Below, in pieces: positions 41,100 to 54,242 of a DNA stretch of 64,000 bases (positions are counted from its first letter, which is position 1; the number at the start of each line of letters is the position of its first letter). The translations under genes and the position numbers were made by a program. Below the pieces are notes generated by a model. That model was not told the origin of the DNA. It saw nothing but the letters and a program-made list of their open reading frames with translations, and searched no databases. The stretch is from an uncultured Clostridia bacterium (GTDB taxonomy: Bacteria; Bacillota; Clostridia; Oscillospirales; Acutalibacteraceae). The stretch spans positions 1 to 64,000 of the forward strand of contig CALYBJ010000001.1 of assembly GCA_944412445.1 (NCBI GenBank). The letters are read 5' to 3'.

Positions 41100-41636
41100 A
41101 TGAATAAGATTAAAAGCAAAGATATAAAAAGACATAATTACAAAAGCAGTGAAAAGGAAGTCGCCGTTTACAATGAGCTTGATTTTGACGGAGGCTTGAT
41201 TGAAGAAATGAGCCTGTCGGAAAAAAGTGATTTTTTTCGTCTTGCAAGCGAATTAAATGAAATTCTGCTTAAAATCTTTAACTGTTTTTCGGAAAAGGAA
41301 ATTATTACAGGACCTTTTGAAAATTATATAAATTATTGCCGCTGGAAGAATTTAAACAGCTTTACTATTGTAAAACAGCTTAAAGAAGTAATTAAAAATA
41401 AAGAATACATAAAAATAGATACCGAAAAAGATTTTGCGGTTATTGAAAAAATTACAGAGGGAAATATGCGGTATTTATCACAGATTTCCTTTTATCTTCC
41501 TGTAAACAGGATTCGTATACAGGTTATGCACCATACGGGGTTTGTTTTATATTCCGAAAAAGCAGAAAATATTTATCCTCTGATAAAAGAAATAATTAAG
41601 GATTATAAGGGGTGGCTCTCGGAGTTAAGATGCTGA
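41100..41636 (+). CDS. Hypothetical cytosolic protein
   Basis: This 178-residue protein has no signal peptide or membrane segment. It has a basic N-terminus (residues 1-20) and a mixed alpha/beta body, with a central strand-rich part around ISFYLPVNRIRIQVMHHTGF and a final helix (LIKEIIKDYKGWLSEL). No known motif is recognised. Its size, charge pattern and lipoprotein neighbours resemble orphan immunity-type proteins, but there is no toxin gene to support that. AGAGGT supports the start. Confidence 0.6.
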   Translation: MNKIKSKDIKRHNYKSSEKEVAVYNELDFDGGLIEEMSLSEKSDFFRLASELNEILLKIFNCFSEKEIITGPFENYINYCRWKNLNSFTIVKQLKEVIKNKEYIKIDTEKDFAVIEKITEGNMRYLSQISFYLPVNRIRIQVMHHTGFVLYSEKAENIYPLIKEIIKDYKGWLSELRC

Positions 41637-41703
41637 TTACCGTATTACATCAGAAATATTTGCTGCCCCAATAATATGCGGTAATGGTGAAAGGAGTTAT
41701 ATT

Positions 41704-42624
41704 ATGAAAAATATTAACAGACTGATTTCTTTGTTATCGGCGTTTGTTTTAATTTTCTTCTGCTCCTCCTGCGGACAGGATGAAAATACCAAAAAGCAAA
41801 CCATAGAGTTTGACGACGGCTCCTTTATAGTTCAGCAAAACGGTCCTGTTTATTATCACCGCTTGTTTGACGATTATGTTTTGCGCAGCGGAGACGGCTT
41901 CTTTTATCAGGAGCTTATTAAAAAGGACAAAGACGTGCCTTTTACGGAAACATCGCTGGGTGTTCCTCAGGGATATTATGTGAAATACTTTTTTGACCCG
42001 GAAGGATATATAGCATATTACAGAATTATTCAGGCTCAGGATACAGAAGCTGACGGGGGTTATTCAAAAAATATAGGAGGAGAAAAAAGAACTGTTCTCT
42101 CCGAAAACGCAGTGCTGTTTGACTGCGAAAAAAATACCGAAACGCTGTTCGCCGCAATGAACGAGCTTTATGATTACTGCGAAAGCAGTAATATAAACAT
42201 AGGCGCTGAGTATTACGCCGCCGGAAGCGGAAGCGTTCCTGCCTCTTGGGCGGCGGAATCAAACGGGTGGAAAATCGAGAAAACTCCCTGGGACTACTGC
42301 ACCGTAAAAAACGGCAGATACGATGTTTTTTCAGGTGAAATAGATTTCTGCGGAGTAAAGGAAAATTATTTGTTTTTCCGTTTGCAGATAACCGATGACG
42401 TGGATTTAATAAAAGGAGTTAACGAGGGAATAGAGTATGATTTTGACAGCCCCGTAGATACTAAAAGAAAAAGTCTTACAGACGAATGTAATGTTTATGC
42501 CGATAAGTATATTTTGATAAATACTGCGTCCGATGAAATCAGCATTTTTAATTCCGAAGAAGAATTTAAGGCCGGACTTCCGTTTTCTGAGGAAGATTTA
42601 AAAAATTATGAAATAAAAATTTAA
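41704..42624 (+). CDS. Lipoprotein, function unknown
   Basis: This 306-residue protein has a signal peptide with a lipobox (FFCSSC, Cys at ~23). The mature part is acidic and rich in aromatic residues, with segments such as GPVYYHRLFDDYVLRSGDG and WDYCTVKNGRYDVFSGE that suggest a beta-rich fold. It has no recognised domain. AAAGGAG supports the start. It is 68 bp after the previous hypothetical gene and belongs to the series of lipoproteins in this island. Confidence 0.68.
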   Translation: MKNINRLISLLSAFVLIFFCSSCGQDENTKKQTIEFDDGSFIVQQNGPVYYHRLFDDYVLRSGDGFFYQELIKKDKDVPFTETSLGVPQGYYVKYFFDPEGYIAYYRIIQAQDTEADGGYSKNIGGEKRTVLSENAVLFDCEKNTETLFAAMNELYDYCESSNINIGAEYYAAGSGSVPASWAAESNGWKIEKTPWDYCTVKNGRYDVFSGEIDFCGVKENYLFFRLQITDDVDLIKGVNEGIEYDFDSPVDTKRKSLTDECNVYADKYILINTASDEISIFNSEEEFKAGLPFSEEDLKNYEIKI

Positions 42625-42725
42625 AAGAGTAAAGACATACTTCGTATTGGGATATATAAAAGGCGTTTATTTATAAAAGACAAGTCATTATTTTATTTTT
42701 GGAATTGAAGGTGTTAAGTAAAGCA

Positions 42726-43022
42726 ATGTGTCTGTTATTTCAGTTGCTGAAAAAAGTTCAAAAAAATCCTTATATATATATGGGCGATAAAAATCTAAGC
42801 AAATTAAAATTCTTTATTGACGGTTATTTGACTTGCGCGCAGGAACATAATGATTTTGATTCTGTTCGGGATTTTGAGGATTTTAAACTATTTATTGAAA
42901 AATCATTTTCTCCTATCATAACCGAAAACAGTTATTATAGCTATATCGAAAAAGCCTGCAAGTCTGAAACGGAAGCTTTTGAAAAATTTTTTGCATTATT
43001 CGGTGAATTTATTGCAGAATAG
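42726..43022 (+). CDS. Small hypothetical protein
   Basis: This is an about 98-residue, mostly helical cytosolic protein. It has a helical pair around KLKFFIDGYLTCAQEH and DFEDFKLFIEKSF, and a third helix near the end. I prefer the ATG at 42726, with AAGGTG upstream at long spacing; a TTG at 42699 or GTG at 42711 would lengthen it by 9 or 5 residues. No family is recognised. The helical build and its position between lipoprotein genes resemble small immunity proteins, but this is weak. Confidence 0.5.
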   Translation: MCLLFQLLKKVQKNPYIYMGDKNLSKLKFFIDGYLTCAQEHNDFDSVRDFEDFKLFIEKSFSPIITENSYYSYIEKACKSETEAFEKFFALFGEFIAE

Positions 43023-43079
43023 GGCGCAAATCAAAAAGTATAAAAGTATGAATTGAAATTATATGAAAGGAGTTTTTTT

Positions 43080-43478
43080 ATGAAAAAACAAGTCAGTATT
43101 TTATTTACGGTTATTGTGCTGGTGCTGTTTTCCTCATGCGACAGCAAAACAGCGGATAACGAGCAAACCACTGATGAAATTCAGAGAGAAACATATGTCG
43201 CGGAAATAACAGATACATACGACAGCGATTTGCAGCTGCTTTATGACAGTGAAGATATTTCATGGGCATATCTGCCTAAATACGGCGGTGTCGGCGGACA
43301 TTTTATAAGTCTTGTTGACGAAAATGAGTATAATGAGTGGTTCAACTCTTTTGACTGCGTAAATCCACAGGGAACCAGAGACGGCGATGAGTATAATATT
43401 TATACTTTTATAAAGGAATTTAATATATCGAAAGAGGATTTTATTAAGGCTAATGAATCTTTCGTATATACTGAATGA
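43080..43478 (+). CDS. Lipoprotein, N-terminal part of a split gene
   Basis: This 132-residue frame starts at an ATG after AAAGGAG and has a lipoprotein signal (VLVLFSSC). The mature part includes the SWAYLPKYGGVGGHF and NEYNEWFNSFDC segments, and stops abruptly after NESFVYTE. The next frame (43453-43743) overlaps it by 26 bp in the +1 frame and reads on with EEIDLLFNSDEEY, as if the two were one protein. A decayed copy at 45251-45482 keeps pieces of both parts in order. I infer one gene broken by a frameshift. Confidence 0.65.
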   Translation: MKKQVSILFTVIVLVLFSSCDSKTADNEQTTDEIQRETYVAEITDTYDSDLQLLYDSEDISWAYLPKYGGVGGHFISLVDENEYNEWFNSFDCVNPQGTRDGDEYNIYTFIKEFNISKEDFIKANESFVYTE

Positions 43479-43743
43479 GGAAATTGACCTGCTGTTTAAT
43501 TCCGACGAGGAATATGTGCTTGACCGTATAGTAAATCCCTATGCCGTAAGGATAGGGCATAAAATATATACTCCCTTTTGGCTTGCAACGCATACCGCGG
43601 ACGATTACAGGGCAGAGGGAATTACGCCTGAAATGTTAAGTGAAAAAGCCGATAAGATAAGATCTTTATTTTCTGAATATTATGCCGACTATGTGCAGAC
43701 GTTTGATGAAAGCTATTCCGAATTAGCGGAAAACGCGTCATAA
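43453..43743 (+). CDS. C-terminal part of the split lipoprotein gene
   Basis: This 96-residue frame has no signal peptide of its own and only a weak AAGG before its ATG. Its content (DLLFNSDEEYVLDRIVNPYA, then EGITPEMLSEKADKIRS and FDESYSELAEN) continues the lipoprotein frame upstream. Removing one base near 43475 joins the two. It may be untranslated, produced by ribosomal slippage, or started at its own ATG by coupling. The matching C-terminal segment survives in the duplicate at 45.3 kb. Confidence 0.55.
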   Translation: MNLSYILNEEIDLLFNSDEEYVLDRIVNPYAVRIGHKIYTPFWLATHTADDYRAEGITPEMLSEKADKIRSLFSEYYADYVQTFDESYSELAENAS

Positions 43744-43916
43744 AATCAGCCAATGTCATAAATTCATTATATATAACCGCTTCCGTTTGCAGGCAGAAGC
43801 GATAAACTGATTTTGATTATGAATATTCTTATCAAACAAAACAATATCCGCATTTTTCAGACGCAATGCGAATTAATGAAATATATTTTTTTTATACTAA
43901 ATAAAGCGGTGATATT

Positions 43917-44576
43917 TTGAAAAATGCTTTCTTTAAAATTCTTCTTATACTTCTTGCAATAGCTGTTGGAATGTATGCAGTCTCAGGCAATACAATCCGC
44001 TATAAAACGCATACAGATAAAACAACTCTGAATGCGGTATTGACAGGCATTCCTTCGGATAAGACGTCGATAAACAAAAACACGAGCGGGCGTAATTATT
44101 ATGACGCTCTGAATTCGTATGAATACGAGAATCTCTCTTTTTGGCAGGCGCTTGCCTTTTTCGCTGAATCCACGGATGCAATATCGTACATATTTACTTC
44201 ATCAACGGCAACAAGCGGGGAAGAGTACGACTCGGTCTTTCTGATTGGATATGCTGTTATATCAGACGATGAGCAGCTCTATCTATATATTTCCTACGGC
44301 GGCGATAACCCGGGAAATACTGTCTATCGGGCAAAAGGCGAGGTCGATCTGTCCGCTTTTGACAAAAATGATTTTGAGAAGTCGGAAATCGTTCCGGACT
44401 TGCTGCACGATGCAGGTATGCGGCTTGCCTTGTTTTGCCGAAATTATGCGTTTCTGATTATTGCCCTGGCTGCTGTTGCTCTGTTCTGTTTGTTCTTTTT
44501 TGTAAGACTTCATAAAAGAAGAAAAACGGAAAATGACCTTGCATACGGAAAGGGAACTGACGACAAACCTGTATAA
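43917..44576 (+). CDS. Bitopic membrane protein with extracytoplasmic domain
   Basis: This 219-residue protein has an N-terminal hydrophobic segment (residues ~5-23), an extracellular middle domain (~30-175) and a C-terminal transmembrane helix (~180-200) ending in a basic cytoplasmic tail (LHKRRKTEND). The start is a TTG with GGTGA upstream, so it is only moderately supported. No recognised motif. Its base composition is slightly higher in GC than the neighbouring hypothetical genes. Confidence 0.65.
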   Translation: MKNAFFKILLILLAIAVGMYAVSGNTIRYKTHTDKTTLNAVLTGIPSDKTSINKNTSGRNYYDALNSYEYENLSFWQALAFFAESTDAISYIFTSSTATSGEEYDSVFLIGYAVISDDEQLYLYISYGGDNPGNTVYRAKGEVDLSAFDKNDFEKSEIVPDLLHDAGMRLALFCRNYAFLIIALAAVALFCLFFFVRLHKRRKTENDLAYGKGTDDKPV

Positions 44577-44799
44577 AAAGATTCATGAATACATGGAAGC
44601 CCATGACCTGTAATTATAAAGAGTAAAGTATATACTCACTATCAGGCAAATAAAAGCGATTGCTGTTTTTTTTTGCTGCAATGATCTTCCTCAGAGGAAG
44701 CTCACGGAATCAGTAAGTACGGTACTATCATAATTTTTTATTATACTTTTCATATATGGAATTGAGGCGTTTTAAATTATTAATATAAAAGGAAAAAAC

Positions 44800-45216
44800 A
44801 TGAAAAACAGGGTAAAATTAAGCGATATTATGGGCTGCTGCCATTGTTCTGTTGTTACTTTCTATTTTAATATAAGAAGTTATAAAATAGAGCAAATCTG
44901 CGATATCTTAGAAAAATGTAAATTGCAGAAAGAATATTTTGAAAATTATTATTATGAATTTGATTATATTCCTCTTCCCATTTCAAATGAAGCGGAGATT
45001 ATCAGAGAATTTATTGCACAGCAGAATAACAGGAAGTACATAAAATATTTTTCCGGTATTTCGGATGAAAACTTATGGATGGAATTTGACAATATTTTTC
45101 ATTATGGTGACGAACGTGATCATTGGGATATTTATTATCATAATCGAATAAAAAAGATTGCCGAAGCATGGTGCAGGGATAATCATATATTATTTGCTGA
45201 CGATACCGAATGGTAA
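44800..45216 (+). CDS. UPF0158-like protein
   Basis: This 138-residue cytosolic protein matches the layout of the UPF0158 family: an early ISNEAEIIREFIAQ, a Phe-containing centre, and the late WDIYYHNRIKKIAEAWCRDN, close to the family's W-x-aromatic...AxEWCxxN ending. Family function is unknown. The family call is from motif resemblance and not from an alignment. AAAGGA supports the ATG. It precedes the decayed lipoprotein copy. Confidence 0.62.
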   Translation: MKNRVKLSDIMGCCHCSVVTFYFNIRSYKIEQICDILEKCKLQKEYFENYYYEFDYIPLPISNEAEIIREFIAQQNNRKYIKYFSGISDENLWMEFDNIFHYGDERDHWDIYYHNRIKKIAEAWCRDNHILFADDTEW

Positions 45217-45250
45217 TAATATTTTACGGGAATATTAATATTTATGATGA

Positions 45251-45482
45251 TTTCCTAATGTGACAGAAAAACAGAGGATAACGAGCAAACCGCCGATGAA
45301 ATTCAGATGAAGCATATCCTGCGGACGGTAACAGGGCAGAGGGAATTACGCCTGAAATGTTAAGTGAAAAAGCCGATAAAATAAGGTCTTTTTTTGCGGG
45401 CTATTATGACGACTATTTGCGGACGTTTGACGAAAGCTGCTCCGAATTAGTGGAAAATCCGCAGTTGAAAATAATAAGTTAA
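45251..45482 (+). pseudogene. Decayed, internally deleted copy of the split lipoprotein gene
   Basis: About 230 bp match two separate parts of the gene at 43.1-43.7 kb: ACAGAGGATAACGAGCAAAC... matches ~43131-43200, and ACAGGGCAGAGGGAATTACG... matches ~43600-43743. Roughly 400 bp in between are missing, and the junction lies at similar short sequences (CATATGTCGCGGA and CATACCGCGGACG). The start codon and signal peptide are gone. The remaining C-terminal frame reads EMLSEKADKIRSFFAGYYDD. Confidence 0.8.
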
Positions 45483-45522
45483 AAAGAATTGATAATTTTA
45501 TAAATTACGGGAGATTAAACTT

Positions 45523-46518
45523 ATGAAAAAAATACTTACGGTAATTTTAATCACAGCGGTTTTTTTGATTTTGCCGTCATGCGGCGGTGAAAAGGAAAAT
45601 TATTTTTCCGCTGAGCTTACGGCTTCTCAGGTTTTTTCTGACAATGCAGGCGCTCTGAATTCAGATGCTGCCGTGTGCGTTTACGGCGAATATTATATTG
45701 CGAAAAAACATAATTATGAAGATAACAGCAACAGCATTGTAACGGTTGACAGAAAAACAAAAGAAAGCAGTGTAATATACAAAAGGACAGGTGAGATATT
45801 ATCATTAAAGCCTGTAAGCAATACGGAAATCTGTCTGCTTGACGCCGACGACAGACTGTCATATATAAATCTTAATCTTGAAACGGGAAAAACTACGAAA
45901 ATCACTCCGGAAATTTCTTCTCAAGGGGAGATTTTAAGCATTACCCCGTATTTTACCGAAAGCACCGTATATATTGACGCTTTGACAGGCGCGGCAAATG
46001 AGGGCGAGCCTTACCATTCTCTGTATACTTTCAACGGCGGCACTTATGCGCCCTTTATTGAAAACTGCTCTCAGTTTCAGATTTCAGAGGGCGGCGTACT
46101 GTATTCATACGGAGGCAGTATAATGTTTAAGGACAGTGACGGCAAAGAACAGGAGCTGCTTTCTTTTGATTTCGACAATGTTTTTAATGTTTTTGCCGGT
46201 AAATATTTGGTTTCATGCGCTAAGGGATATTATGAAATCATAGATCCTTTTACAAATGAAACAATATGCTCTGAAGCCGATATTTCAAAAAGCGGAAACG
46301 GCGGATTTGAAGGCGGCGTTGCAGTTTACGGAGAAAATATGTATTTTTCAACATACAGCGGAATCGAACAGCTTAACTTAACAAGCGGAAAAACCGAAAA
46401 GCTTGTCAGCGTATACCCTGATTACTTTTTTGTTTTTGAAGATAAGCTGTTTTTTGAAACAGGGGACAGCGTGTTTGTATACAATATAAATAATTCCGCC
46501 ATAGAAACGCTGTTTTAA
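45523..46518 (+). CDS. Lipoprotein with propeller-like repeats
   Basis: This 331-residue lipoprotein has the signal MKKILTVILITAVFLILPSC, with Cys20 as the lipid site. The mature part shows repeated beta-strand blocks (for example DRKTKESSVIYKRTGEILSL, GSIMFKDSDGKEQELLSFD and ENMYFSTYSGIEQLNL) resembling the DUF5050 or propeller-type sensors found next to signalling genes in Clostridia. No catalytic motif. GGGAGA supports the start and a terminator follows. Confidence 0.68.
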   Translation: MKKILTVILITAVFLILPSCGGEKENYFSAELTASQVFSDNAGALNSDAAVCVYGEYYIAKKHNYEDNSNSIVTVDRKTKESSVIYKRTGEILSLKPVSNTEICLLDADDRLSYINLNLETGKTTKITPEISSQGEILSITPYFTESTVYIDALTGAANEGEPYHSLYTFNGGTYAPFIENCSQFQISEGGVLYSYGGSIMFKDSDGKEQELLSFDFDNVFNVFAGKYLVSCAKGYYEIIDPFTNETICSEADISKSGNGGFEGGVAVYGENMYFSTYSGIEQLNLTSGKTEKLVSVYPDYFFVFEDKLFFETGDSVFVYNINNSAIETLF

Positions 46519-46578
46519 AAAATTTACAGCTAAAGGGAATTTTACAGAGGGAAAAGATACTGAGAGTATGCAAAAGGA

Positions 46579-46606
46579 AAAACAGCCTCTTATAGGGGCT
46601 GTTTTT
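46579..46606. terminator. Bidirectional terminator
   Basis: The stem AACAGCCTC / GGGGCTGTT with a 5-nt loop and flanking A and T runs separates two convergent genes. Confidence 0.82.
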
Positions 46607-46618
46607 ATGTGTCAAAAA

Positions 46619-47683
46619 TTATATAAGCTTAATTTCTTTATCCTCCGTGAGCTTTTCCCAGAAAATCATTTTCCATTCAACACTCCGGGGAGGCTCAAAA
46701 TGCAGTGCGGATACCGCGCGGCGTGTATTTTCGTTTTTATTTTCCGAAATAAAAATTTCCGTAGGTCCGTCCGCTCCTCCGATTATTCCCATGCTTTCAT
46801 ATTCTTCCTTTTGTTTTGAATCGTCCCGGGGCTGTTTGTGTCTCGGCTTGTCGCTTACGGCGCAGTCTTTTATATAAAAATTTTCAGGGGATAAATAAGG
46901 CTCAGCCGTATAGGTGATTTCAAAGGCTTCACAGGGGAATTCATATTCGCTGTCACATGAAAAATCAAAGGTTCGGGGGCTGTTTTCCTCAACAGTAAGC
47001 TTATGCTGTTTTCCCGATACAGGGTGCGCAAAGGTTATAACTTCCCCTGCTTTCGGGTCTTTAAAATGAATACCGCCGAACTCCGTCGGGGAGGGTTTGA
47101 GCTGAACTGACAGGGATTTGATTTTTTCTTTTTTCTGCCATGGATAAGAACAGCGGTGCAACGACCAGCCCTTGTTTTTATCCAAACGGTAATAGCTTAA
47201 AATTTTTTCGGCTTCGGGAGAGTTTTCTTCTCCCTCCGGGAGACAGCTTTCGGGAATCCACGCCGTGCAGGAGCCGTAGTCCATATTAAGCTTCTTTCCG
47301 TTTAAAACAAGACTGCTGTTAAAATCAATATTAAGAGGATTTTCATTCAGCAGCCGTTCTTCATCTTCCCCGCTGAGGTCTTTGCCGGATGCCGACAGCC
47401 ACTCGTATTTATCGGTAAAAGTTTTAAGCTTTTGTGTGTTTACCTCAATGCAGATATCGGCAGTTAAGCCTCGGGAGCAATAATAAACAGAGGGAATATG
47501 CCATATTTCGTCCTTTTGAGCAAAGCTCTTGTTTATATGTATTTCCTTTCCCTTTTTGTTTTTTTCGGAATGATTCCAAAATCCGCTTCCGTAAAAAACT
47601 TTCCGTTTTGTATTTTTGACGGCAGAAAAAATCCTGCCCGCCGCCTGCTTCAGTCTTTTGAAAAGCTTAAAAGTATTCGTCAT
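46619..47683 (-). CDS. Hypothetical protein with a GIIGGADGPT signature
   Basis: This 354-residue soluble protein has an early basic region (residues ~1-40), no signal peptide and no membrane helix. Near the C-terminus it has MGIIGGADGPTEIFIS, encoded at ~46750-46793. This is the signature of region IIIa of sodium-pumping decarboxylase beta subunits (OadB family), where it lies in a membrane helix and its Asp is important for Na+ transport. The rest of the protein is unlike OadB. The start at 47683 has CAGGAG upstream; the longer frame to 47749 adds 22 residues without a ribosome binding site. Confidence 0.65.
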   Translation of the reverse strand: MTNTFKLFKRLKQAAGRIFSAVKNTKRKVFYGSGFWNHSEKNKKGKEIHINKSFAQKDEIWHIPSVYYCSRGLTADICIEVNTQKLKTFTDKYEWLSASGKDLSGEDEERLLNENPLNIDFNSSLVLNGKKLNMDYGSCTAWIPESCLPEGEENSPEAEKILSYYRLDKNKGWSLHRCSYPWQKKEKIKSLSVQLKPSPTEFGGIHFKDPKAGEVITFAHPVSGKQHKLTVEENSPRTFDFSCDSEYEFPCEAFEITYTAEPYLSPENFYIKDCAVSDKPRHKQPRDDSKQKEEYESMGIIGGADGPTEIFISENKNENTRRAVSALHFEPPRSVEWKMIFWEKLTEDKEIKLI

Positions 47684-47884
47684 TATAAATTGCTCCTGAG
47701 CCGTAACATGTTTATGCTTCAGTATATCAAAAGAGTGAAGCTTTTTCAATGTTTTAGGTGCTGTATTTCAGAAAAACTTTCTTCGTTTTTAACAGTTTAT
47801 ATTTGATTTCCCGCTGTTAATTTTTGTTTACAAAATTTTTTCGATATGATATACTTAAAAATAAATTGTTTGTAGGTGAGAGGA

Positions 47885-48250
47885 TTGCAGACAATTGACG
47901 AAGCCTTAAAAAAACTGCAAAAATCAAAATTCAGAAGCGGTTTTCATTTAAGCGAAAAAGAAAGATTATATGTACGGGAAAAGGGCATGGAGGTTATCAG
48001 GGAGCACTGCCGTGAAATAATAAAAAAGAGGCTGGCTCCGGCAAATTCTTTAAACGACGGAAAACAAACTCCCATGAAAGGCCATCCCGTGTTCAGGGCT
48101 CAGCATGCCTGCGCCTGCTGCTGCCGGGGCTGCTTAAATAAGTGGTATAATGTGCCTCTTAACAGAGAGCTTACAAATGCTCAAATTGAAAAAATCGTCA
48201 ATCTGTTAACGGCTTGGATAGAAAATGAAATGAAAAATAACGGAAAATAA
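47885..48250 (+). CDS. DUF4186 family protein
   Basis: This 121-residue protein is recognisable as DUF4186 by KSKFRSGFHLSEKERLYV, then RLAPAN...DGKQTPMKGHPVF, AQHACACCCRGCLNKWYNV and a final helix. The Cys-rich CACCCRGC patch suggests a metal site, but the family's function is not known. TTG at 47885, just after AGGTGAGAGG, is the best start; a GTG at 47876 lies within that ribosome binding site. It precedes the ABC exporter genes by 18 bp and may be in the same operon. Confidence 0.85.
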   Translation: MQTIDEALKKLQKSKFRSGFHLSEKERLYVREKGMEVIREHCREIIKKRLAPANSLNDGKQTPMKGHPVFRAQHACACCCRGCLNKWYNVPLNRELTNAQIEKIVNLLTAWIENEMKNNGK

Positions 48251-48268
48251 AAGGAAAAGGAAAATTTT

Positions 48269-50002
48269 ATGAAAAAGCTGTTGATTTATTTAAAGCCTTA
48301 TGTAAAGGAATGTATTTTGGGACCACTTTTCAAGCTTCTTGAGGCGTCCCTTGATTTAATTGTACCCCTTGTTATCGCTGAAATTATCGACACCGGCATA
48401 GGCAATTCCGACAGCGCCTATATAGTAAAAATGTGCGTACTCCTTGTGGCTCTGGGCTTTATAGGTCTTGGCTTTTCTGCCACGGCGCAGTTTTTTGCGG
48501 CAAAGGCATCGGCAGGCTTTATAGCGAAAATAAGGCAGGTGCTTTTTAAGCATATACAAAGCCTTTCCTATACGGAAATAGACGAGATCGGAACATCAAC
48601 CATGATTACGAGAATCACAAGCGATGCGAATCAGGTGCATAACGGAGTAAACATAACATTAAGGCTTTTGCTGAGATCGCCTTTTATAGTTTTCGGAGCC
48701 ATGATAATGGCGTTTACAATAGATGTGAAAACCGCATTGATTTTCGTTGGAGCCATAATATGTCTGTCAATAGTAATATTCGGAATAATGCTTATCAGCA
48801 TACCGCTTTACAGAAAGGTGCAGAACAGGCTTGACAGAGTAACGGTAATAACAAGGGAAAATCTGACGGGCGTAAGGGTAATAAGGGCGTTCTGCAAGGA
48901 AGATGAAGAGATTAAGAAGTTTGACGACAGCAACGAAGCTTTAATGAAAATGCAGCAGTTCGCGGGAAAAATATCGGCTCTTATGAATCCCGTAACATAT
49001 GTAATAATAAATATTGCCATAATACTTCTTATTTATATCGGTGCAATAAGAGTTGAGGCAGGGCTTTTGACCCAGGGAGCTATAGTAGCTCTTTACAACT
49101 ATCTTTCCCAGATTTTAATTGAGCTTATAAAGCTTGCAAATCTTATTATAACAATAACCAAATCGGTAGCCTGCGGAAACAGAATACAGAGCGTCCTTGA
49201 AATAGAGTCAGGCGAAAAGGAAAACAGAGAGAATGTAAAGCTTTCCGGAAAAACCGACAGCGTATATGCGGTGGAGTTTGAAAATGCTGACTTAAAATAC
49301 AAAAGCGCAGCAGACAGTTCTTTATCTCATATTGACTTTAAAGTTAAAAAGGGAGAAACCGTGGGTATAATAGGAGGCACAGGCTCAGGAAAATCAAGTC
49401 TTGTGAATATGATACCGGGCTTTTATACTGCCTCAAAGGGAAAGGTTTTGGTAGACGGAACCGATATTAAGGATTATGATTTAAAGGCTTTAAGGGAGAA
49501 AATCGGAGTAGTTCCCCAGAAGGCGGTGCTGTTCAGCGGAACCGTAAGAGAAAACATAAAATGGGGTAAAGGCGACGCCGGAGACGATGAAATAAACGAA
49601 GCGCTTGAAACCGCCCAGGCGAAGGAGATTGTGGATAACAAAAAAGAAGGGCTTGACTATTATATAGAGCAGGGCGGCAGGAATCTTTCCGGAGGTCAGA
49701 AGCAAAGGCTTACCATTGCCAGAGCCGTAGTTAAAAAGCCGGAAATCCTTATTCTTGACGACAGCGCGTCGGCTCTTGATTTTGCCACGGATGCGGCGCT
49801 CAGAAAAGCCATAAAGAACATGAGGGGAAACACAACGGTGTTTATTGTATCCCAGAGAGCTTCAACCGTAAGATATGCCGATAAAATAGTAGTTCTCGAC
49901 GACGGCAGAATCGCCGGAATAGGAACGCATGACGAGTTAATGGACGGCTGTCAGGTGTACCGGGAGATATTCGAATCGCAGTACAAAAAGGAGGAAGCGT
50001 AA
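48269..50002 (+). CDS. ABC exporter half-transporter, degenerate-site subunit
   Basis: This 577-residue protein fuses six transmembrane helices (~15-305) to a nucleotide-binding domain (~335-575). Walker A is GGTGSGKSS (~369-377) and the signature is LSGGQKQR. Walker B is ILILDDSASALD, with Asp where the catalytic Glu is usual, and the switch residue is Gln (VSQRAST) instead of His. This pattern marks the degenerate half of a heterodimeric exporter. The partner follows two bases later. Substrates may be drugs, lipids or peptides and cannot be set from sequence. Confidence 0.9.
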   Translation: MKKLLIYLKPYVKECILGPLFKLLEASLDLIVPLVIAEIIDTGIGNSDSAYIVKMCVLLVALGFIGLGFSATAQFFAAKASAGFIAKIRQVLFKHIQSLSYTEIDEIGTSTMITRITSDANQVHNGVNITLRLLLRSPFIVFGAMIMAFTIDVKTALIFVGAIICLSIVIFGIMLISIPLYRKVQNRLDRVTVITRENLTGVRVIRAFCKEDEEIKKFDDSNEALMKMQQFAGKISALMNPVTYVIINIAIILLIYIGAIRVEAGLLTQGAIVALYNYLSQILIELIKLANLIITITKSVACGNRIQSVLEIESGEKENRENVKLSGKTDSVYAVEFENADLKYKSAADSSLSHIDFKVKKGETVGIIGGTGSGKSSLVNMIPGFYTASKGKVLVDGTDIKDYDLKALREKIGVVPQKAVLFSGTVRENIKWGKGDAGDDEINEALETAQAKEIVDNKKEGLDYYIEQGGRNLSGGQKQRLTIARAVVKKPEILILDDSASALDFATDAALRKAIKNMRGNTTVFIVSQRASTVRYADKIVVLDDGRIAGIGTHDELMDGCQVYREIFESQYKKEEA

Positions 50003-50003
50003 G

Positions 50004-51779
50004 ATGGCAAAGGGTAAGAAAGCGCCTCAGGGAACTTTGAATAAGGTTCTTTTGCATATAAAAAAATACAGTCCGTTTCTTGTACTGTCCGTGATTTTTG
50101 CGGCGGCATCATCAATCGCCATGCTTTACATTCCGATACTTGTAGGAGACGCCGTTGACCTTATTGTATCCAAGGGAAATGTGGATTTTAAGGGCGTTCT
50201 TAAAATAGCGGGAGAAATCGGGGCAATAGCCGCCGCAAGCGCCTTTATTCAATGGCTTATGAATGTAATCAACAACAGGATAACATATCATGTTGTAAGG
50301 GATTTAAGAGAGGAAGCCTTCAGAAAGATTGAAATTCTTCCTCTTAAATATCATGACTCCCATTTGCACGGAGAAACGGTAAGCAGGATAATTGCCGACG
50401 CGGATCAGTTCGCCGAGGGACTTTTAATGGGCTTTACCCAGTTTTTCACGGGAGTTGTAACAATTCTGGGCACGCTTGTGTTTATGCTTGCAATCAACTG
50501 GAAAATAGCTCTTGTGGTAGTTGTTTTAACGCCTCTTTCACTGTTCGCAGCCAGATATATTTCAAGAAAAACATATAAAATGTTTAAGCTTCAGTCGGAA
50601 ACAAGAGGCGAGCAGACTGCCTTTACCGATGAAATGATAGAGAATCAGAAGGTGGTAAGAGCCTTCTGTCATGAGGAGGAAAACCTTAAAAAGTTTGACG
50701 AAATCAATAAAAGACTTGAAAAAAGCACTTTGAGGGCGTCATTCTTTTCGAGCCTTGCCAACCCAACAACAAGATTTGTAAACAATGTGGTATACGCTTT
50801 TGTAGCGTTAGCGGGAGCCTTGGCGGTGCTTGACATAGGATTTACCGCCGGAGCCGTATTTACCGTGGGAAGTCTCAGCGTATTTTTAAGCTACGCCAAT
50901 CAGTATACTAAGCCCTTTAATGAAATATCGGGAGTTGTTACGGAGCTTCAGAACGCTCTTGCCTGCGCCGCAAGACTTTTCGAGCTTATTGACGAGGAGT
51001 CTCAGACTCCCGACAGCAGAGATGCGGTTATTCTGGGAGAAATCAGCGGAAAGGTTGAGCTTGAGGATGTAAGCTTTTCGTATACCGAAGACAAAAAGCT
51101 TATTGAGCATTTCAATTTAAGGGTAAAGCCGGGTCAGAGAGTTGCCATAGTAGGTCCTACCGGCTGCGGAAAAACAACGCTTATAAATCTTCTTATGAGG
51201 TTCTACGATGTAAACGGCGGAAGCATAAAGGTAGAGGACAAGGATATACGGAATATAACAAGGCGAAGTCTTAGGGCAGGCTACGGAATGGTTCTTCAGG
51301 ACACATGGTTAAAGTCGGGAACAATTCGAGATAATATAGTAATGGGAATGCCGGCGGCGACGGAGGAAGAGGTAACAGCGGCGGCAAAGGCGGCTCACTC
51401 CCACAGCTTTATAAAAAGGCTTCCCAAGGGCTACGATACGGTAATCGGAGAGGACGGAGGAAGACTTTCCCAGGGACAAAAGCAGCTTCTTTGCATAACG
51501 AGAATAATGCTTTGTCAGCCGCCTATGCTTATCCTTGACGAGGCCACATCTTCAATAGATACAAGAACGGAAATAAGAATACAAAAGGCGTTTTTAAAGC
51601 TTATGGAGGGAAGAACCACCTTTATAGTAGCCCACAGACTTTCCACAATAAGGGAAGCGGATATAATTCTTGTAATGAAGGACGGAAAAATCATAGAGCA
51701 GGGAAATCACCGGGAGCTGTTAAAGAAAAACGGCTTTTACACGAAGCTTTACAACAGCCAGTTTGAGCAGACAGGATAA
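50004..51779 (+). CDS. ABC exporter half-transporter, catalytic subunit
   Basis: This 591-residue partner has the same TM-NBD layout. Walker A is GPTGCGKTT (~386-394), the signature is LSQGQKQL, Walker B is MLILDEATSSID with the catalytic Glu, and the H-switch is AHRLST. Together with the preceding degenerate subunit it should form one active and one inactive ATP site, as in BmrCD/TM287-288-type exporters. AAGGAGG supports the ATG. No regulator gene lies next to the pair. Confidence 0.92.
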   Translation: MAKGKKAPQGTLNKVLLHIKKYSPFLVLSVIFAAASSIAMLYIPILVGDAVDLIVSKGNVDFKGVLKIAGEIGAIAAASAFIQWLMNVINNRITYHVVRDLREEAFRKIEILPLKYHDSHLHGETVSRIIADADQFAEGLLMGFTQFFTGVVTILGTLVFMLAINWKIALVVVVLTPLSLFAARYISRKTYKMFKLQSETRGEQTAFTDEMIENQKVVRAFCHEEENLKKFDEINKRLEKSTLRASFFSSLANPTTRFVNNVVYAFVALAGALAVLDIGFTAGAVFTVGSLSVFLSYANQYTKPFNEISGVVTELQNALACAARLFELIDEESQTPDSRDAVILGEISGKVELEDVSFSYTEDKKLIEHFNLRVKPGQRVAIVGPTGCGKTTLINLLMRFYDVNGGSIKVEDKDIRNITRRSLRAGYGMVLQDTWLKSGTIRDNIVMGMPAATEEEVTAAAKAAHSHSFIKRLPKGYDTVIGEDGGRLSQGQKQLLCITRIMLCQPPMLILDEATSSIDTRTEIRIQKAFLKLMEGRTTFIVAHRLSTIREADIILVMKDGKIIEQGNHRELLKKNGFYTKLYNSQFEQTG

Positions 51780-51817
51780 AATAAAACCGGAAAATCCGAA
51801 TAATATTTTCTTATATG

Positions 51818-51846
51818 TTGACAATATTATAAAAATCTGCTATGAT
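51818..51846 (+). promoter_or_regulatory. Promoter of the pyk leader
   Basis: TTGACA (51818-51823) and TATGAT (51841-51846) with a 17-bp spacer. The transcript would start at about 51851-51853. Confidence 0.75.
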
Positions 51847-51850
51847 TTAT

Positions 51851-51975
51851 AGCGAACCGAGTAGTAAGTGGTGGAGTCTGTCATAGTCCTTCGGGGCTAT
51901 TTATAAAAGGTTTTTCGGCAATAACATATTGCGGCATAAAAAATCAGGCTCACTGTAAAACAGTGAGCTTTTTTT
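51851..51975 (+). promoter_or_regulatory. Structured pyk leader RNA ending in an intrinsic terminator
   Basis: The ~125-nt leader starts with CGAACC (51853-51858), which can pair with GGTTTTTCG (51909-51917). Inside is a UUCG hairpin (ATAGTCC/GGGCTAT, 51883-51900). A GCAATA/TATTGC hairpin (51918-51932) follows, then the terminator GCTCACTG/CAGTGAGC (51948-51968) with T7. The layout is that of an attenuator or riboswitch, but I do not recognise the class. It lies just before pyk and should decide read-through. Confidence 0.65.
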
Positions 51976-51999
51976 ATCAGGGAAAAGGAGAAAACACTT

Positions 52000-53424
52000 A
52001 TGATGAAAAGGACAAAAATTATATGCACCCTGGGTCCTGCGTCTTCCGATGAAAAGACAATAGCAAAGATGCTTAAAAACGGAATGAATGTTGCCAGATT
52101 TAATTTTTCCCACGGAGATCATGAATATCATAAAAAAATGATGGATACCTTCAGAAAGGTAAGGGACGAGCTGGAGATACCGGCGGCGGTAATGCTTGAC
52201 ACAAAGGGACCCGAAATCAGAATAGGGGAGCTTAAGGAAAAGAAAGCGGAGCTTAAAGAAGGCGAAGAATTTATTTTAACAACGGAAGAGATAAAAGGCG
52301 ACAGCAAAAAGGTAAGCGTATCCTATAAGGATTTACCCTCTCAGCTTAATATCGGCGACAAGGTTTTAATAGACGACGGCAAAATAGTTCTTGAGGTTAC
52401 CGATACAAGCGATACGGAGATAAAGTGCGTTGTTGCGGCAGGGGGCGTCATATCCGACAGAAAGGGAGTAAATATACCCTGCAAGCACCTTGATTTTCCG
52501 TATATAAGCAAGCAGGACGAAAAGGATTTAATATTCGGTGTAGAGCAGAATGTGGATTTCGTGGCGGCGTCCTTTGTCCGTTCAAAGGAGGATGTAATCG
52601 CCATAAGGAATCTTCTTGACTATTACGGGGGACAGGATATAAAGATAATCTCCAAAATAGAAAATATAGAGGGCGTTGAAAATTTCGACGAGATATTAAG
52701 GTATTCCGACGGCATAATGGTAGCCAGAGGAGATATGGGCGTTGAAATAGAATATGAGAAGCTTCCGGGACTTCAGAAATCCTTTATAAAGAAGTGCTAT
52801 CAGGCGGGAAAGATGGTAATAACGGCGACCCAGATGCTGGAATCAATGATACACAGCAGTACTCCTACGAGAGCGGAGATAACGGATGTTGCCAACGCTG
52901 TATTTGACGGCACCTCGGCAGTGATGCTTTCCGGTGAAACAGCCATGGGAGATCATCCGGATCTGGCGGTAAAGGTAATGGCGAAAATAGCAATGCAGGC
53001 GGAAAACGACGCCTTTTCAATGAATATTTACACCGATATTAAATACGAAAACGATGTGAACGACACTGCCAACGCAATATGCGACGCGGCGTGCACAACG
53101 GCAAAGGATGTTAACGCTACGGCCATTATAGCCGTTACGAAGTCGGGACTTACCGCAAGAAGAGTTTCAAAGTTCAGACCTCATGAAATAATAGTTGCGG
53201 CAACGCCGGAGGAAAAAACATTTCATCAGCTTGCCCTGTCCTGGGGCGTGTTCCCGGTAATGGCGATTTACCAGACCGACGCCAACGTGCTTTTTAACCA
53301 TGCCATAGCCTGCGCGAAAAAATACGGCTATGTAGAGGAAAACGACAGAGTTGTAATAACGGCAGGCAGCGGAGGTACCACCAACGTTTTAAAGGTTGAA
53401 GTGGTAACAGGCTGCGGAAAATAA
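52000..53424 (+). CDS. pyk: Pyruvate kinase
   Basis: Pyruvate kinase (474 aa) converts PEP and ADP to pyruvate and ATP. It has the TIM-barrel signature ICTLGPASSD, ARFNFSHGDHE, MLDTKGPEIR and the substrate Lys region IISKIENIEGVEN, then MVARGDMGVEI and ITATQMLESMI. The C-terminal allosteric domain ends at residue ~474 and lacks the extra PEP-utilising domain of the long Bacillus form. The ribosome binding site is AAGGAG; MM is a double start (52000 or 52003). It is the only gene after the leader and is followed by a terminator. Confidence 0.96.
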   Translation: MMKRTKIICTLGPASSDEKTIAKMLKNGMNVARFNFSHGDHEYHKKMMDTFRKVRDELEIPAAVMLDTKGPEIRIGELKEKKAELKEGEEFILTTEEIKGDSKKVSVSYKDLPSQLNIGDKVLIDDGKIVLEVTDTSDTEIKCVVAAGGVISDRKGVNIPCKHLDFPYISKQDEKDLIFGVEQNVDFVAASFVRSKEDVIAIRNLLDYYGGQDIKIISKIENIEGVENFDEILRYSDGIMVARGDMGVEIEYEKLPGLQKSFIKKCYQAGKMVITATQMLESMIHSSTPTRAEITDVANAVFDGTSAVMLSGETAMGDHPDLAVKVMAKIAMQAENDAFSMNIYTDIKYENDVNDTANAICDAACTTAKDVNATAIIAVTKSGLTARRVSKFRPHEIIVAATPEEKTFHQLALSWGVFPVMAIYQTDANVLFNHAIACAKKYGYVEENDRVVITAGSGGTTNVLKVEVVTGCGK

Positions 53425-53427
53425 AAA

Positions 53428-53460
53428 AACGGCGGGAATTATCCTGCCGTTTATATTTTT
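53428..53460. terminator. Bidirectional terminator between pyk and the B12 operon
   Basis: The stem AACGGCGGG/CCTGCCGTT (one G:T pair) is followed by TTATATTTTT on the plus strand and TTTTTTTAT on the minus strand. Confidence 0.75.
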
Positions 53461-53468
53461 GCAATAAT

Positions 53469-54242
53469 TTATGCTCCTACGTCAGCGCCCATATCGCAGG
53501 TAAAAACAAACTCAATAACATCGCCTGCCTTGACCTTGTAAGAGGAGGAGCCTTCCGAGGGAAAAACTCCGTTGACCTTGTAAAGCCAGCCGGATTTGGA
53601 GCCGCAGTCCTTTTCGTAAATCTGATTTATGCCCTCGATGTAGTATGTTCCGAAGCCGGCGGAATAGGAATATTCAAACTGAACGCCGCTGTTTTCGCAT
53701 ACCCTTTTAAGCATGTCAAAGGCGGTATCGCCGCTTTGGACTTTTACTCCTGTTTTTCCTATTATAACGCCGTTAGCCGGCACAAAATATTCCTTGCCGT
53801 CTTTCAGCTTATCCATATTGCCGAGAATCGTTCCGCAACTTACGGAAATATATGCTTCCTCCTGCTTTTTTGTGGTTGTTTCCGCAGGAGCTTTTTTTGT
53901 TGTGGTTTCCGTATTTGCCGCCGTTTCGTTTTTTAATGTTGTTGACACGGAATTGTTTTTTGTTGTTGCTTCGGTTTTCTGCGTATTTTTTTCGGTGCTT
54001 TTTTCAGTGATTTTTTCCGTATTCTTTTCCGTTGCCGTTGCCTGCGGCTCTTGAATATCCTGATTTTCCGCCTTGTCGCATACTCCGATTGTAACGTCTT
54101 CCGTGCCTCCTGTAAAATTTTCCTGCGCCGCACAGTCGGTAGTTTCTGTTCCTACGGTTAAATTTTCCCTGCCGCAGGAACAAAGACTGACTGCTGAGGC
54201 TATAATTAATAAAACGGAAATAATTTTTTTAATATTTTTCAT
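53469..54242 (-). CDS. DUF4430-domain lipoprotein
   Basis: This 257-residue lipoprotein has signal MKNIKKIISVLLIIASAVSL and lipobox CSC, then a long Thr/Glu/Lys-rich low-complexity linker (~50-120) and a DUF4430 domain (~125-257), with the telltale CGSKSGWLYKVNGVFPSEG and the closing KAGDVIEFVF. DUF4430 resembles the C-terminal half of transcobalamin-type B12 carriers. As the last gene of an ECF operon behind a B12 riboswitch, it is most likely a tethered cobalamin- or corrinoid-binding protein. The start is supported by CAGGTG. It overlaps the S-component gene by 14 bp. Confidence 0.82.
   Translation of the reverse strand: MKNIKKIISVLLIIASAVSLCSCGRENLTVGTETTDCAAQENFTGGTEDVTIGVCDKAENQDIQEPQATATEKNTEKITEKSTEKNTQKTEATTKNNSVSTTLKNETAANTETTTKKAPAETTTKKQEEAYISVSCGTILGNMDKLKDGKEYFVPANGVIIGKTGVKVQSGDTAFDMLKRVCENSGVQFEYSYSAGFGTYYIEGINQIYEKDCGSKSGWLYKVNGVFPSEGSSSYKVKAGDVIEFVFTCDMGADVGA

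Follow-up and report, generated by a model that had tools for sequence, protein, structure and literature searches.

Why does a soluble protein carry the peptide that holds the sodium-binding aspartate of a membrane pump? The question is raised by one gene in a 64,000-nucleotide stretch of DNA from an uncultured Clostridia bacterium (the window). The initial annotation had found in its product the motif GIIGGADGPT, known from OadB-type sodium-pump beta subunits, and suggested a separate, mobile element of protein design with another function. The gene and its features, all on the minus strand, are as follows.

46619..47683, minus strand: gene of the 354-amino-acid soluble carrier protein (open reading frame and translation, ATG start)
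46859..47551, minus strand: conserved beta-rich domain, residues about 45-275 (AlphaFold2, pLDDT mostly 80-96)
46736..46822, minus strand: predicted disordered loop around the motif, residues 288-316 (AlphaFold2, pLDDT below 50)
46748..46792, minus strand: motif MGIIGGADGPTEIFI, residues 298-312 (translation, pattern, alignment, and partial OAD_beta match)
46628..46723, minus strand: C-terminal strands past the motif loop, residues 321-352 (model and alignment)

The open reading frame had been delimited correctly, while the motif had been placed at 46750-46793, off by one or two bases. An AGGAG sequence (47693-47697) lies 9 nt upstream of the ATG. The core, IGGADGPT, corresponds to residues 301-308, and the motif columns of the family alignment are at least 90% conserved. 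The AlphaFold2 model, built with a 15-sequence alignment, is soluble and beta-rich without a transmembrane segment and is what predicts that the motif sits within a disordered loop; the 46 residues after the core contain beta strands and no transmembrane segment. We note that putative lipoprotein genes on the plus strand, at 41704, 43080, and 45523 (41704-46518 of the window), adjoin the carrier gene and that the last of them (45523-46518) ends tail to tail with it.

The window protein does not belong to the OadB pump subunits. Asp203, a Na+-binding residue of OadB, sits at the tip of helical hairpin H1, and the D203A substitution is reported to have abolished Na+ binding (PMC7274780). When a 24-amino-acid segment containing the motif was compared with solved structures, it matched OadB chains only, at residues 196-218 of 6IVA/6IWW with Asp203 included. 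About 17 residues of the H1 tip and the window motif are nearly identical, but the window protein has no other OadB sequence and no multi-helix transporter fold, and the stretch that forms a buried helical hairpin in OadB is predicted to be a disordered soluble loop here. The Pfam model OAD_beta (PF03977) aligned to residues 293-320 only, at 19.6 bits against a cutoff of 31.6, and Pfam and NCBIfam detected nothing but the motif stretch as a subthreshold OAD_beta piece. Likewise, a profile search of the protein against solved structures returned OadB only, through the motif. The beta-rich domain had no family in a Pfam search and no fold match in the PDB by Foldseek (none with E below 0.001). 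The second OadB hairpin motif, MGPNVAGVIG, is absent from the window protein, its sole occurrence in the same genome being in the genuine OadB on contig C10, and no genes for alpha or gamma decarboxylase subunits were recognized when the reading frames of 41100-53816 were inspected. Because OAD_beta matches the motif alone, below its cutoff, and because the model is of a soluble beta domain, we conclude that the protein is no pump subunit; that the rest of it is soluble and unrelated to OadB held by Pfam, model, Foldseek, and structure profile search alike. A phage or defense gene identity was also rejected, as there was no PHROGs match to the window protein and no PADLOC model matched any of five carriers tested, the window protein included.

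Whether the motif is merely a chance match was decided by its conservation. A DNA pattern for GGxxDGPT occurred once in the window and never in 100 shuffles. To find homologues without selecting for the motif, we built a profile from the domain only and ran it against 200 family genomes, which gave 11 other matches. The exact core is present in 8 of the 11 (L282, L283, L284, L285, L287, L290, L291, and L292), reads IGSADGPT in L289, and has been lost from L286 (G214:C8), which has a shorter stretch, GTILTLCVGAVASC, at that position; L288 was not read in the correct frame. Over the window protein and the eight exact-core homologues, identity is 100% in the core, 32% in the domain, 22% in the linker preceding the motif, and 25% in the stretch past it, and the alignment shows the core Asp to be kept. 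Since the core is identical while domain and linker diverge, the peptide is under purifying selection inside an otherwise free linker, and given this conservation and the absence of the pattern from shuffles, a chance origin in the window is rejected. The initial annotation would have fallen had the match been local chance without conservation in orthologues, and it did not. We note, however, that pattern-based sets fix the core by construction, such that core invariance rests on the motif-free search of this one family. The domain also has relatives in fusion proteins, joined to a BNR sialidase-like domain in L030 and to an additional N-terminal region in L011, and no conserved neighbors, which the initial annotation had proposed to look for, were seen around family members.

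The same peptide is found on many unrelated proteins. The consensus spans about 17 residues, [SA]-[IV]-[GAS]-[IV]-I-G-G-A-D-G-P-T-[AS]-[IV]-[FYIL]-[VLI]-x-x. A pattern scan was run on 40 related genomes first and then, with one base set so that canonical OadB would not match, on larger sets. Carriers other than OadB were found in 19 of 200 genomes of the family, 29 of 245 across the class (two OadB matches removed), and 8 of 289 from other classes of the phylum; records of named species yielded carriers in Geosporobacter subterraneus, Defluviitalea phaphyphila, [Clostridium] polysaccharolyticum, and Clostridium porci, among others. These counts are lower bounds, as filters drop some carriers and the pattern demands the exact core; many of the genomes sampled are metagenome-assembled, and one order-wide search was poorly filtered and returned mostly OadB. 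Altogether there were at least 111 distinct carriers, which fell into about 57 unrelated families when the motif was masked before clustering, though very short proteins may be over-split. Thus, the proposal that the motif is a separate, reusable module held.

Carriers are diverse and include lipoproteins, small membrane proteins, HTH-TM regulators, PlsY, Lgt, and an ABC permease. Host domains recognized by Pfam were G3P_acyltransf (PlsY), LGT, DUF6449 (ABC permease), PGA_cap, Cu_amine_oxidN1, HTH_3 (regulators with two transmembrane helices), HAAS, and DUF4825, and reading the sequences added rhodanese-like lipoproteins, SLH-type proteins, and a substrate-binding-type lipoprotein. A HAAS-type carrier is also present in a named Subdoligranulum variabile record. 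In one PlsY acyltransferase (L060:1115-1924(-), G136:C124), the motif is inserted between two transmembrane segments. Elsewhere, Lgt is fused to the motif and a domain of approximately 200 amino acids (L091:6264-7718(+)), and that domain also forms a family by itself, with the motif at the N terminus (L046, L054, L097, L154, and L177). A secreted protein of 98 amino acids (L353:2190-2486(-), genome G703) has three tandem copies with the unit IGGADGPTQIYTE..K..DKDKGI; its gene lies downstream of what reads as a trpS-like gene for tryptophanyl-tRNA synthetase, and a second small carrier (L342) ends in the same motif. Finally, in two genomes (L180:780-1013(+) and L263:1354-1647(-)), the OadG-related subunit whose gene immediately follows OadB has the motif in an N-terminal extension, and L263 has a degenerate second copy, GVIGSADTVTYIET. 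This small subunit (NF040909) is only one of many carriers, and the window protein is unrelated to it.

What spreads appears to be a peptide rather than a DNA element. Synonymous positions differ freely among motif copies within one genome, including between carrier and OadB, and copying of a DNA element was rejected on that ground. Codon identity at shared residues was 0.47 between a carrier and the OadB of its own genome and 0.38 with those of other genomes, an excess that could reflect shared codon usage. Because codon choice varies freely, the unit under selection is the peptide, and the term "mobile" holds for the peptide in evolution but is not shown for a DNA element. The motif is short, predicted to be disordered, conserved in divergent linkers, and reused across unrelated hosts, all features of short linear motifs, and we have little doubt that it is a portable, selected one.

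A hydrophobic anchor lies within 60 residues of the motif in 45 of the 57 families, at a median distance of 6 residues, and by the positive-inside rule the motif is outside the membrane in 42 of the 45. Topology was inferred from hydropathy and charge only. Some lipoproteins have the motif directly behind the lipidated Cys, several small carriers have the motif followed by a transmembrane segment and a basic tail, and some regulators are arranged HTH-TM-motif-TM. An anchor is lacking from the window family, from a 220-amino-acid family whose motif is N-terminal, and from a coiled-coil family; these are apparently cytoplasmic. Overall, the motif may be N-terminal, internal, or C-terminal, on either membrane side, with no fixed distance to either end of the protein.

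Carriers are statistically linked to OadB. A full OadB was present in 29 of 29 carrier genomes in the random class sample and in 181 of all 245 genomes, the other 64 being without one (hypergeometric P = 8e-5). Two incomplete metagenome-assembled genomes (G573 and G716) had a partial match only and no full OadB, and P is 0.004 if both are counted as carriers without OadB. Moreover, carriers follow the OadB variant of their own lineage. Across 62 genomes, 69 carriers agreed with the OadB of the same genome at 4.43 of 8 variable positions, versus 3.31 +- 0.13 in 10,000 shuffles (P < 1e-4), and in the class sample alone the values were 4.28 and 3.93 (P = 0.002). The test was not significant in a Lachnospiraceae-type set of ten genomes in which OadB reads GPTS, because OadB hardly varies there. 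None of the P values for similarity or co-occurrence is corrected for phylogeny. MGPNVAGVIG, the other hairpin-tip motif of OadB, never had more than one copy in a genome and was confined to OadB, and dispersal is therefore peculiar to the H1 tip as far as tested. A second OadB type (copies L382, L391, and L180) has IGAADGPT rather than IGGADGPT, and no carrier with IGAADGPT was seen. We conclude that the motif has spread as a module, is mostly extracytoplasmic and juxtamembrane, resembles the OadB of its own genome, and co-occurs with OadB.

How the peptide works in carriers is inferred. We suggest that the H1 tip of OadB, the stretch with Asp203, was exapted and that, in Clostridia and relatives, disordered linkers and membrane-proximal tethers of unrelated proteins have received it time and again, the direction being itself an inference. 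There it would act as a docking peptide for a partner that recognizes the H1-tip sequence in both OadB and carriers, perhaps the pump itself or a factor for its assembly, insertion, or quality control, and the carrier would thereby be brought to that partner. The window protein would expose the tag to the cytoplasm by way of its loop, the task of its beta domain being unknown. Both the sequence tracking and the co-occurrence would be explained if carriers dock to OadB or to an OadB-reading factor. No partner has been identified, and the explanation as a whole could as readily prove wrong as right. Whether the motif is functionally tied to OadB or to an OadB-reading partner at all is similarly in the balance, and OadB itself is no more than one possible partner. 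A bolder reading, in which one such receptor draws in dozens of unrelated proteins of envelope and cytosol by means of a general-purpose tag, with tag and pump sequence changing together, is one we lean slightly against. That the motif has a function other than that in OadB is likely but not demonstrated.

Several observations speak against docking. The few cytoplasmic-looking families are awkward for a single partner when most carriers are external, the H1 tip is buried in OadB, and the window-family member L286 lacks the motif. Perhaps, too, the resident OadB gene was simply captured more than once, which could yield the similarity without any ongoing contact. The motif appears to be an undescribed portable binding tag, binding being inferred and a partner not shown; neither GIIGGADGPT nor GGADGPT was printed, and no description of the motif was found, in the open-access PubMed Central literature searched. 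A selected 17-residue peptide common to about 57 families and a primary sodium pump hints that common anaerobes, many of which live in the gut, have an interaction network yet to be discovered, and it offers a clue to the function of many uncharacterized small membrane proteins and lipoproteins. A single peptide such as SIGIIGGADGPTAIFVTS might be used to fish for the partner.

Alternatively, though with less support, the motif may promote homotypic self-association, a strand-turn-strand unit stacking with identical copies in a beta-arch or amyloid-like manner to join carriers. This possibility would explain the tandem copies and the strand-turn-strand look (a hydrophobic strand, a Gly/Asp/Pro turn, and a hydrophobic strand, in disordered linkers), and it would require matching sequences within a cell. 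The three copies of L353 were indeed modeled as repeated strand-turn-strand, but the model is poor (single sequence, mean pLDDT 49.7), most genomes have only one or two carriers, and OadB identity and co-occurrence are left unexplained. Bacterial amyloid signaling motifs (BASS, RHIM-like) are short promiscuous motifs on unrelated proteins. Ours resembles them in that a polar turn lies between two hydrophobic strands and the hosts are unrelated, but it differs in being common to a transporter, mostly outside the membrane, and without NLR/effector pairing. No adjacent NLR or effector gene was seen to share the motif, of which the window has a single copy, and the surroundings of window-family members showed no conserved pairing.

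Less likely still, the motif is a recognition tag, the substrate site of an enzyme (a protease or a modifying one) for which OadB is a target as well. Such a tag would explain the membrane-proximal position (the 6-residue median distance and the placement behind the lipidated Cys), and the core is highly conserved with a reactive Asp-Gly. C-terminal sorting signals (LPXTG, GlyGly-CTERM, and PEP-CTERM) consist of a short conserved motif beside a transmembrane helix and a basic tail, a layout shared by a subset of carriers. Motif position is unfixed, however, many carriers are lipoproteins, multi-TM, or soluble, the layout is absent from the window protein, and no conserved neighbor enzyme was seen around the window family. 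We doubt more strongly that the peptide retains a Na+-related function by which carriers, such as HTH-TM regulators, respond to Na+. In favor, the same sequence supplies the Asp203 needed for Na+ binding in OadB, HTH-TM-motif-TM regulators exist, and the window family retains the core Asp; but the OadB site draws on other parts of the fold too, requiring Ser382 with a contribution from Asn412, and has a Kd of only 3.7 mM (PMC7274780), and the loop is predicted to be disordered in the window protein. That the matches are functionless, by chance or as fossil OadB fragments, is all but excluded: some viral-contig matches are indeed chance frames without hydrophobic flanks (L041, L044, L045, and L051), but the control patterns IGSADGPT and IGAADGPT gave only such frames in viral contigs, MGPNVAGVIG never disperses, and the invariant core refutes the idea for the window family.

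The docking reading aside, the motif accounts for a class of wrong annotations as "sodium ion-translocating decarboxylase subunit beta," as the initial annotation had warned. A 230-amino-acid lipoprotein of Bacteroides fragilis (UVQ90410.1; CP103159.1 plasmid, L410:2908-3600(+)) bears that name, and only a variant motif, IGSADGPT, resembles the family; SIGIIGSADGPTAIYI lies in its tether, with IGSADGPT just behind the lipobox. No relatives of this lipoprotein were found in viral contigs. In a distant relative from Treponema saccharophilum, the place of the motif is taken by an ordinary charged linker, an arrangement suggesting that the motif was gained or lost as a unit.
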